In this document: one piece after another, positions 10,698 through 12,001 of the stretch
How positions within the stretch are numbered: the stretch's first letter is position 1
How the letters are laid out: each line of letters begins with the position of its first letter
Source of the DNA: Steroidobacteraceae bacterium
Lineage (GTDB): Bacteria > Pseudomonadota > Gammaproteobacteria > Steroidobacterales > Steroidobacteraceae
Length of the DNA stretch: 35,793 nucleotides
NCBI GenBank assembly: GCA_027456085.1
Contig: DAIDVO010000112.1
Location: 1 to 35,793 of the forward strand
Reading direction: 5' to 3'
Notes under the pieces: model-generated
Databases searched by the model: none
What the model was told of the DNA's origin: nothing
Seen by the model: only the letters and a program-made list of their open reading frames with translations
Made by a program: the position numbers and the translations under genes

Positions 10698-10773
10698 GCG
10701 GGAATAGCTCAGTTGGTAGAGCGCAACCTTGCCAAGGTTGAGGTCGCGAGTTCGAGCCTCGTTTCCCGCTCCA
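10698..10773 (+). tRNA. tRNA-Gly (GCC), CCA encoded
   Basis: GCGGGAATAGCTCAGTTGGTAGAGCGCAACCTTGCCAAGGTTGAGGTCGCGAGTTCGAGCCTCGTTTCCCGCTCCA folds as a cloverleaf with anticodon GCC. Confidence 0.97.
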
Positions 10774-10783
10774 GATTGTGAAC

Positions 10784-10815
10784 GAACCCCGGCGCGTCCG
10801 GGGTTCATCGTTTTT
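10784..10815 (+). terminator. Rho-independent terminator between tRNA-Gly and tRNA-Cys
   Basis: GAACCCCGG (10784-10792) CGCGT CCGGGGTTC (10798-10806) then ATCGTTTTT. Confidence 0.85.
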
Positions 10816-10821
10816 GACCAG

Positions 10822-10895
10822 GGCTAGGTGGCAGAATGGTCATGCAGCGGCCTGCAAAGCCGCGTACGCCGGTTCGATTCCGACCCTAGCCTCCA
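10822..10895 (+). tRNA. tRNA-Cys (GCA), CCA encoded
   Basis: GGCTAGGTGGCAGAATGGTCATGCAGCGGCCTGCAAAGCCGCGTACGCCGGTTCGATTCCGACCCTAGCCTCCA; acceptor GGCTAGG/CCTAGCC; anticodon GCA. Confidence 0.97.
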
Positions 10896-10931: not shown

Positions 10932-11259
10932 TGGTGCCCCGGGCCGGAGTCGAACCGGCACAGCCTTGCGGCCAACGGATTTTCATACCTCGACGGCTTT
11001 CACCGCCGCGCGCTGCGCGTTCGGGGTCTGGAGTGCGCCACGACCGTGGCAGCCGACAGCTGCGGTAGGTCCCCGCCGTCCACTCTCTACACCTGCCGGC
11101 TTAAGGCCTTGGAGCCTTACGTCGGATTGGTTCGGCGTTGCCTCGGACGCAGGGCCCAGGGGATTCACCGAGTTTGACGGGATCCAGCGGGGCGTTTCCT
11201 ACCCCCGCCGCTCAAATTTTCCTCAAGTCCGTTGCGTCTACCAATTTCGCCACCGGGGC
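10932..11259 (-). tRNA. tRNA-Leu (UAA), CCA encoded, interrupted by an intron (exons 11259-11225 and 10983-10932)
   Basis: Reverse strand 5' exon GCCCCGGTGGCGAAATTGGTAGACGCAACGGACTT; 3' exon AAAATCCGTTGGCCGCAAGGCTGTGCCGGTTCGACTCCGGCCCGGGGCACCA. Acceptor GCCCCGG/CCGGGGC; anticodon stem ACGGA/TCCGT re-forms only when the insert is removed; joined loop CUUAAAA gives anticodon UAA. Confidence 0.93.
10984..11224 (-). other. group I intron (IC3-like), ~241 nt, no internal homing endonuclease
   Basis: 5' splice site CUU with IGS GAG (P1 U.G wobble); P-like UCAAACUCGGUGAAUCC (+ strand 11161-11177); Q-like GGCAACGCCGAACCAAUCCGACG (11120-11142); R-like GGUGUAGAGAGUGGACGGCGG (11074-11094); S-like GCGCACUCCAGACCCCG (11022-11038); P7 GAGUG/CACUC; P3 CCGUC/GACGG; P9-like hairpin GGCGGUGAAAGCCGUC (10992-11007); intron ends in G. 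Confidence 0.9.
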
Positions 11260-11371: not shown

Positions 11372-12001
11372 ATGCAAGCGGATGCCCCCGAATTGACTGT
11401 CGACAAGGTGCACGTCTGGCGCGGTGAGCGCCACGTGCTGCGGGGTCTGAGCTTCCAGGTCGAGAGTGGGCAGCTACTGCACATCTGGGGCCCGAACGGC
11501 ACCGGCAAGACCACCTTGCTGCGCGTCGTCTGCGGCTTACTCCGGCCCGAGCAAGGCCAGGTCGCGTGGGCCGGCCAACCGATCGAACACATTCGCAGCG
11601 ACTACCAAGCGGCGCTCGCCTACGGCTCGCACGAGGCGGCGCTCAAAGGGGATCTGACGGCCTTGGAAAATCTGCGCTATGCCGTGGGGCTCAAGCGCCG
11701 GGTCGGCGACCAGGAACTGCGCGCGGCGTTGGATCGGACCGGCGTCGGCGCCTGCGCGGATCTGCCGGCGCGCGTGCTTTCGGCGGGGCAGCGCCGGCGC
11801 GTCGCGATGGCGCGGGTTCTCGCGATGCGCGCGTCTGTTTGGCTGCTCGACGAACCGTTCGCCAATCTCGATGCCGTGGGATCGGCGCTGCTCGCGCGCA
11901 TGCTCGAGGAGCACGCGGACCTGGGGGGTATGGCGCTCGTCGTCGCGCATCAGGCGCTCGACCTGCGCCGCCCGGTGCGGAGCCTCGAGCTGTGCGCATG
12001 A
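11372..12001 (+). CDS. ccmA: heme exporter ATP-binding protein
   Basis: Walker A GPNGTGKTTLLRVVCGLL; LSAGQRRRVAMARV; first gene of a ccm operon. Confidence 0.94.
   Translation: MQADAPELTVDKVHVWRGERHVLRGLSFQVESGQLLHIWGPNGTGKTTLLRVVCGLLRPEQGQVAWAGQPIEHIRSDYQAALAYGSHEAALKGDLTALENLRYAVGLKRRVGDQELRAALDRTGVGACADLPARVLSAGQRRRVAMARVLAMRASVWLLDEPFANLDAVGSALLARMLEEHADLGGMALVVAHQALDLRRPVRSLELCA

Follow-up and report, generated by a model that had tools for sequence, protein, structure and literature searches.

A group I intron between U34 and A35 of tRNA-Leu(UAA) in a Steroidobacteraceae genome, and its relatives in proteobacteria and phages

An interrupted tRNA-Leu(UAA) gene and its empty sites

The window analyzed here, a stretch of 35,793 nt from a Steroidobacteraceae bacterium, carries on its minus strand (11259-10932) a complete tRNA-Leu(UAA) gene that is divided between U34 and A35 by 241 nt (11224-10984; Table 1). 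A preliminary description, made from the letters alone, had proposed two complete tRNA halves around an insert of about this length, at the site of the cyanobacterial and plastid intron, and two lines of evidence agree with both proposals. ARAGORN, run with introns of 150-400 nt allowed, made a single call in the window, tRNA-Leu(taa) at c[10932,11259] with a 241-nt intron and the junction 'gactt-Intron-aaaat'; 100 dinucleotide shuffles of the window produced seven intron-tRNA calls in total, so that 0.07 would be expected by chance per stretch of this length. In addition, intronless genes from the same genus fix the junctions, as they align to positions 1-51 and 293-344 of the query with no sequence between. 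With default settings, ARAGORN reported only tRNA-Gly and tRNA-Cys in the window, as did Rfam at its gathering threshold, which gave no match in the 241-nt intron. The expectation that standard callers would miss the gene was thus borne out.

Table 1. Features of the interrupted tRNA-Leu(UAA) locus, in coordinates of the window
Feature	Positions	Strand	Evidence or remarks
tRNA-Leu(UAA) gene, interrupted, 3' CCA encoded	10932..11259	-	ARAGORN intron mode; only tRNA-Leu(UAA) found in the genome
5' exon, 35 nt, last base U34	11225..11259	-	35/35 identical to uninterrupted genes of G015, G005 and G002
Group I intron, 241 nt, 66% G+C, no homing-endonuclease gene, terminal G at 10984	10984..11224	-	
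3' exon, 52 nt, A35 to CCA	10932..10983	-	51/52 identical to uninterrupted genes of G015/G005
tRNA-Gly(GCC) and tRNA-Cys(GCA), convergent with tRNA-Leu	10698..10895	+	Default ARAGORN, Rfam
ccmA-like gene; flank in common with empty-site alleles of G015, G005, G006 and G002	11372..12001	+	71-75% protein, 74-76% DNA identity
P1: exon CUU (11227-11225) with intron GAG (11213-11211), U.G at 5' splice site	11211..11227	-	
P2 hairpin, pairing specific to the 241-nt intron	11185..11210	-	Other introns: only 66% of cells pair
P3 5' strand CCCGUC; partners 11080-11079 (GA) and 11075-11072 (CGGG)	11176..11181	-	Covariation
P4 5' strand; partner 11137-11132	11166..11171	-	99.6% paired, 2/6 pairs covary
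R-like core GTGTAGAGAGTGGACGGCGGGGACCTA: P7 5' strand, P3 3' strand, P8 start	11066..11092	-	Pattern match
P7 5' strand GAGUG; partner 11035-11031 CACUC	11081..11085	-	100% paired
P8; closing pairs 11071-11068 with 11045-11042	11042..11071	-	99.4% paired, two pairs covary
J8/7: GU, vs AA in 35-37/39 introns	11040..11041	-	U also in G205 only; G in G205, G020 and L051
P9.0 and P9 with GAAA tetraloop	10987..11027	-	P9.0/P9 94% paired with covariation; tetraloop helix 88.7%

In four genomes of the same genus (G015, G005, G006 and G002), an intronless tRNA-Leu(UAA) occupies the corresponding locus beside the same ccmA flank; G002, whose contig extends far enough, additionally retains tRNA-Cys and tRNA-Gly there. 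The exons are identical to these empty-site genes at 83-86 of 87 positions, the spliced 87-nt gene matching those of G015 and G005 at 86. Matches to the two exons that adjoin each other without an insert occur in at least nine genomes of the genus. The exons at 10932-11259 are thus the genus's own, and the intron alone either arrived here or, in sister species, left. In G010, another member of the genus, the intron-bearing tRNA-Leu(UAA) has different exons and is closely preceded by a broken remnant of the native tRNA-Leu(UAA), an arrangement that looks like replacement of the native gene by an incoming intron-bearing one. The UDG-uvrC-pgsA-tRNA neighborhood of the window finds its best matches in gammaproteobacterial MAGs (uvrC 51.5% to locus L278). 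The tRNA-Leu gene is convergent with tRNA-Gly and tRNA-Cys in the window and in G002, and co-directional with them in three members of the family.

The preliminary description held that an intact tRNA-Leu(UAA) elsewhere in the genome, combined with a lack of spliced product from this locus, would speak against its reading. A search of this draft MAG (81% complete, 204 contigs) found no second tRNA-Leu(UAA), the other leucine tRNAs being UAG, CAA, GAG and CAG; at 81% completeness a second copy could be missing, so the single copy is weak evidence when taken alone. The genomes with the closest introns, G020 (100% complete) and G205 (99%), likewise yielded only an interrupted tRNA-Leu(UAA), with other leucine-like matches to CAA, GAG, CAG and UAG. 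Since no other tRNA-Leu(UAA) was found in any of the three genomes, splicing is probably essential and, judging from these gene copies, the interrupted gene very probably yields a functional tRNA-Leu(UAA).

Group I core of the intron

To assess the group I fold, pseudoknot included, we counted pairs on a structure alignment of 39 introns from tRNA-Leu genes, nearly all proteobacterial. Standard pairs filled 89.6% of cells, compared with 73.7% when partners were shuffled and at most 42.3% when they were slid, and 43 of the 61 pairs had changes on both sides. P3-P6, P8 and P9 were also recovered independently by RNAalifold, a program that draws no pseudoknots; 36 of its 56 pairs show compensatory changes. 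The P3/P7 pseudoknot, P4-P6 and P8 are all in place with compensatory changes, and the insert is therefore a group I intron, as first described.

Individual elements could be checked in the same alignment. P7, proposed as GAGUG/CACUC, is paired in 39 of 39 introns, with GC/CG, UA/CG and AU/UA/GC swaps at three pairs in 14-18 of the 39 sequences; by analogy, it would be the guanosine-binding helix. For P3, proposed as CCGUC/GACGG, the two inner pairs hold and the three outer pairs are out of register: covariation gives CCCG-UC with GA-(CGG)-CGGG, whose outer four pairs form at 99.4% and each show changes on both strands. The flanking letters of the R-like core GTGTAGAGAGTGGACGGCGGGGACCTA are invariant across the 39 introns. 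The U.G wobble claimed for the 5' splice site (CUU/GAG) is kept in 34 of the 39, and the remaining five have C-G, all of them in tRNA-Leu(CAA) (L048, L062, L123, L127 and L375). Introns in the UAA and in the CAA gene coexist in some genomes. In a predicted P10 pairing, the UUU that precedes the exon CUU of P1 can pair with AAA of the 3' exon. The terminal G noted earlier is at 10984, and a G before AAAAT is invariant in the 39 introns, an invariance that tests the 241-nt intron more than the set because the other introns were cut partly by their terminal G. Nearly all of the 241 nt is core, leaving no room for a homing endonuclease. On the basis of its site, core strings and homology, we class the intron as IC3-like.

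A search with the Rfam group I model RF00028, which the preliminary description had proposed as a check, did not report the 241-nt intron at E=10, either in the window alone or genome-wide. Five cyanobacterial tRNA-Leu introns, the positive control, scored 77.5-96.3 bits. Eight related introns scored 28.9-42.1 bits, under the cut-off of 50, with close relatives down to E=1e-7, and a related Bradyrhizobium intron reached 57.7 bits. Because close relatives with the same covarying core do score (E=1e-7, 57.7 bits), we read the miss as a limit of the model, a score over its cut-off being no defining property of group I introns.

Relatives in bacteria and phages

Of 396 genomes sampled from the order, 85 (about a fifth) have the core motif, as do 30 of 398 drawn evenly from the phylum. 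The earlier view of a proteobacterial host and of an under-recognized intron lineage holds. Run on motif-bearing genomes, the intron mode of ARAGORN called mostly tRNA-Leu(UAA) at 34/35, the others being tRNA-Leu(CAA) and tRNA-Arg(CCU). A scan of named genomes, which used the exact core motif and gives lower bounds throughout, found tRNA-Leu(UAA) introns in at least 43 proteobacterial, at least 10 cyanobacterial, at least three Bacteroidota and at least four Acidobacteriota records. The proteobacterial records listed include Phenylobacterium, Hoeflea, Bradyrhizobium, Sphingomonas, Azonexus, Hydrogenophaga, Rivibacter and Pseudofulvimonas, and the Bacteroidota and Acidobacteriota introns come from MAGs. 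In the phylum sample, one genome has an intron that scarcely differs from the one in Bradyrhizobium lablabi, which identifies the phylum as Pseudomonadota.

Where ARAGORN called tRNA-Phe, -Ser or -His in related loci, the calls were mostly register errors of one or two bases for Leu(UAA) or Arg(CCU), and the Leu ones were recut. Related introns also follow CUU in tRNA-Ser(UGA) and tRNA-Thr(UGU), at two loci each and seemingly at the same 34/35 position, which suggests spread to tRNAs having the guide's target. The genome studied here also has a second tRNA group I intron, at L001:1501-1733 (contig C132, minus strand; 79.7 bits with RF00028), near a CAU anticodon; with the isotype judged by eye, it is consistent with the known tRNA-Ile(CAU) type.

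Default ARAGORN and RF00028 both miss such genes, and many genomes will therefore seem to be without a tRNA-Leu(UAA). Annotation as small hypothetical proteins, predicted at the outset, is what we found in the jumbo phage Atu_ph07, where the stretch with the interrupted tRNA-Leu(UAA) is annotated as a small 'hypothetical protein' with no tRNA. This cultured Agrobacterium phage (MF403008, 109890-116244) and the 735-kb phage LR756501 each have an unannotated group I intron in tRNA-Leu(UAA). Beyond these, tRNA-Leu(UAA) introns of 185-350 nt are present in 44 viral contigs, and longer ones in many more. RF00028 confirmed two of the viral-contig introns as group I (56.9 and 50.2 bits), one of them on a contig with homologs of rIIA, rIIB and an endolysin. 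A match in the crAss-like phage cr111_1 was rejected, there being no intron-tRNA at the locus. According to a 2014 review, all phage introns then known lay in protein genes (PMC3984707), and our search of open-licence papers found no literature on phage tRNA introns.

An HNH endonuclease gene lies inside tRNA-Leu(UAA) introns of 687-712 nt at six loci, L278 among them. Three of the six are the same uvrC-pgsA-tRNA-Gly-tRNA-Cys-tRNA-Leu locus, in Gammaproteobacteria, and the core of one HNH-bearing intron is 83% identical to an ORF-less intron from a genome of the order Steroidobacterales. On six phage contigs, which include one near-identical pair, an HNH-related frame of 200-208 aa overlaps the 5' end of tRNA-Leu by 14-17 nt at its own end. 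HNH genes and phage carriage fit a mobile, partly phage-borne family. On two viral contigs, L228 and L234, the intron-bearing tRNA-Leu(UAA) is followed at a distance of 155 nt by the start of a phage integrase gene, so the tRNA probably belongs to host DNA flanking a prophage and was not carried by the phage. Both are likely prophages that use this tRNA as their attachment site, and their introns cluster with bacterial ones.

Origin, splicing and comparison with known systems

In a maximum-likelihood tree of 95 introns, none of them from plastids, the 241-nt intron groups with those of G020 and G205 (100/99) and next with Roseateles and Rivibacter (98/97); the enclosing clade (100/98) has 51 rows, mostly beta- and gammaproteobacterial. 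Cyanobacterial introns form one clade (100/100) on a long branch. The intron of G010, although from the same genus, groups elsewhere, in a subclade that also contains introns from Azonexus, Hydrogenophaga and Achromobacter and from tRNA-Leu(CAA). A single clade comprising every tRNA-Leu(UAA) intron and none from another tRNA was rejected (AU p=0.001), because the group is interspersed with Arg, Ile-type, Ser, Thr and Leu(CAA) introns. The G+C content of the 241-nt intron is 66%, compared with 65% for its host, and its nearest relatives come exclusively from proteobacteria, the best match being 80% identical.

The preliminary description had called for such a phylogeny and had offered horizontal acquisition and an overlooked lineage as alternatives. 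These are not exclusive. The overlooked lineage is upheld, patchiness suggests horizontal movement and/or loss, and a direct recent gain from cyanobacteria is disfavored: the tree sets the intron in a proteobacterial clade apart from the cyanobacterial one, although the AU test does not reject joining the two (p=0.123). Together the data point to an old, widespread proteobacterial lineage whose patchy presence stems from repeated horizontal movement and/or loss, and they favor movement plus loss over pure vertical descent. Inheritance from an early proteobacterium with many losses and no recent transfer would match the deep, well-supported proteobacterial clade and the host-like G+C; a single origin of the genus's three introns stands at the 5% level (AU p=0.057), and recombination with an uninterrupted copy could remove an intron precisely. 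We nevertheless consider it unlikely, given that the genus's introns are split between two subclades, both of which also contain other families and betaproteobacteria, that the intron-bearing gene of G010 adjoins a broken native remnant, indicating gene replacement, that at least nine congeners have insert-free exon matches, and that HNH genes in relatives offer a means of spread.

The lineage has probably moved between strains and genera, most likely as DNA, either by homing, through HNH endonucleases within related introns or beside phage introns, or by transfer of whole tRNA genes; the 241-nt intron would since have lost its own endonuclease or never had one. No homing endonuclease was seen in its own subclade and the test of the genus's three introns is borderline, so this route is one that we infer. 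As part of one joint reading, which we put forward only tentatively, ORF-less introns such as this one could be settled descendants, with the cyanobacterial and plastid intron another.

In the transcript, the intron would fold into its P3-P9 core, P1 would dock (exon CUU with intron GAG), and two guanosine-started transesterifications would splice the intron out and join U34 to A35, a reaction required for reading UUA if this is the sole tRNA-Leu(UAA). Self-splicing and the guanosine start are inferred from sequence. The RF00028 miss and the GU in J8/7 leave room for weak activity or the need for a protein helper, and UUA is a rare codon in the window (10 of 8964), so poor splicing might be tolerated. 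The same observations, and the 81% completeness of the MAG, would also accord with a dead gene whose intron splices no more, UUA being read by another, unassembled or wobbling tRNA. That is improbable: every tRNA stem and the core helices are intact, the exons are nearly identical to those of live congeners, and the same J8/7 U is present in G205, where no other tRNA-Leu(UAA) was found. We conclude, with a probability of roughly 0.9, that the locus encodes a functional tRNA-Leu(UAA) with an ORF-less, IC3-like group I intron at 34/35 that is predicted to splice itself and belongs to a mobile proteobacterial lineage.

A recent acquisition directly from a cyanobacterium would account for the same tRNA and the same site, and the joint clade is not rejected (p=0.123), but it is very improbable, as the cyanobacterial clade stands at 100/100 on its long branch, joining it costs 24 log-likelihood units, and both the nearest relatives and the G+C are proteobacterial and host-like, respectively. 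Given the separate clade in the best tree and this p value, we file the intron as a proteobacterial branch of the same-site family and not as a cyanobacterial intron. An assembly chimera or chance resemblance, which a draft of 204 contigs might prompt, is scarcely credible in light of the many independent genomes with homologous interrupted genes and matching covariation, the flanks common to congeners and the 0.07 chance calls per window. Archaeal-type tRNA introns are short, with a bulge-helix-bulge, usually lie at 37/38 and occur in hosts with a splicing endonuclease; the length of 241 nt, the 34/35 site, the covarying group I core and the bacterial host rule out that type.

Textbooks present the tRNA-Leu(UAA) intron as an ancient one common to cyanobacteria and plastids, and trnL serves as a standard marker. 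The intron described here shares with it the tRNA, the 34/35 site, the splice-site U.G, the R-like core and the pseudoknotted P3/P7, whereas cyanobacterial introns form a separate clade (100/100) and score 77.5-96.3 bits with RF00028, most proteobacterial ones scoring below 50 and the 241-nt intron not at all. The preliminary description placed the known proteobacterial tRNA introns in other tRNAs, but putative group I introns in gammaproteobacterial tRNA-Leu-TAA were already noted in Beggiatoa 'BOGUAY' and Thiomargarita nelsonii (PMC4853749); that paper gives no type, structure or family, and the comparison here is by description only. Our search of open-licence papers found no further literature on proteobacterial tRNA-Leu introns. 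The 241-nt intron is thus not the first in a proteobacterial tRNA-Leu(UAA), and the addition is the breadth of the family and its under-recognized proteobacterial branch.

Introns in tRNA-Ile(CAU), found also in Azoarcus, are likewise small ORF-less group I introns in proteobacterial tRNAs, seemingly including the one at L001, but they occupy another tRNA, at a site after the CAU anticodon, and form a distinct clade (100/100) on a long branch. They have been reported from Acidovorax and Burkholderia (PMC8450103). The alphaproteobacterial tRNA-Arg(CCU) introns of the Agrobacterium type have an R-like core and nest among alphaproteobacterial tRNA-Leu(UAA) introns, but lie after the CCU anticodon, not at 34/35, and in a different subclade from the 241-nt intron.

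In collaborative homing, free-standing HNH endonucleases lie beside phage introns, for example F-CphI near cyanophage psbA. HNH genes directly upstream of several phage tRNA-Leu introns resemble this arrangement, although the target would be a tRNA gene, and the window itself has no such gene. For specialists, the greatest surprise is likely to be the phage and HNH context. An intron once held to be a cyanobacterial and chloroplast hallmark is widely scattered in proteobacteria and phages and escapes standard gene finders there. The same site is filled in many species of one proteobacterial order, in MAGs of Acidobacteriota and Bacteroidota and in phages; together with HNH-bearing copies and same-locus empty sites in sister species, this makes the long-debated alternatives of vertical descent and mobility directly testable against each other.
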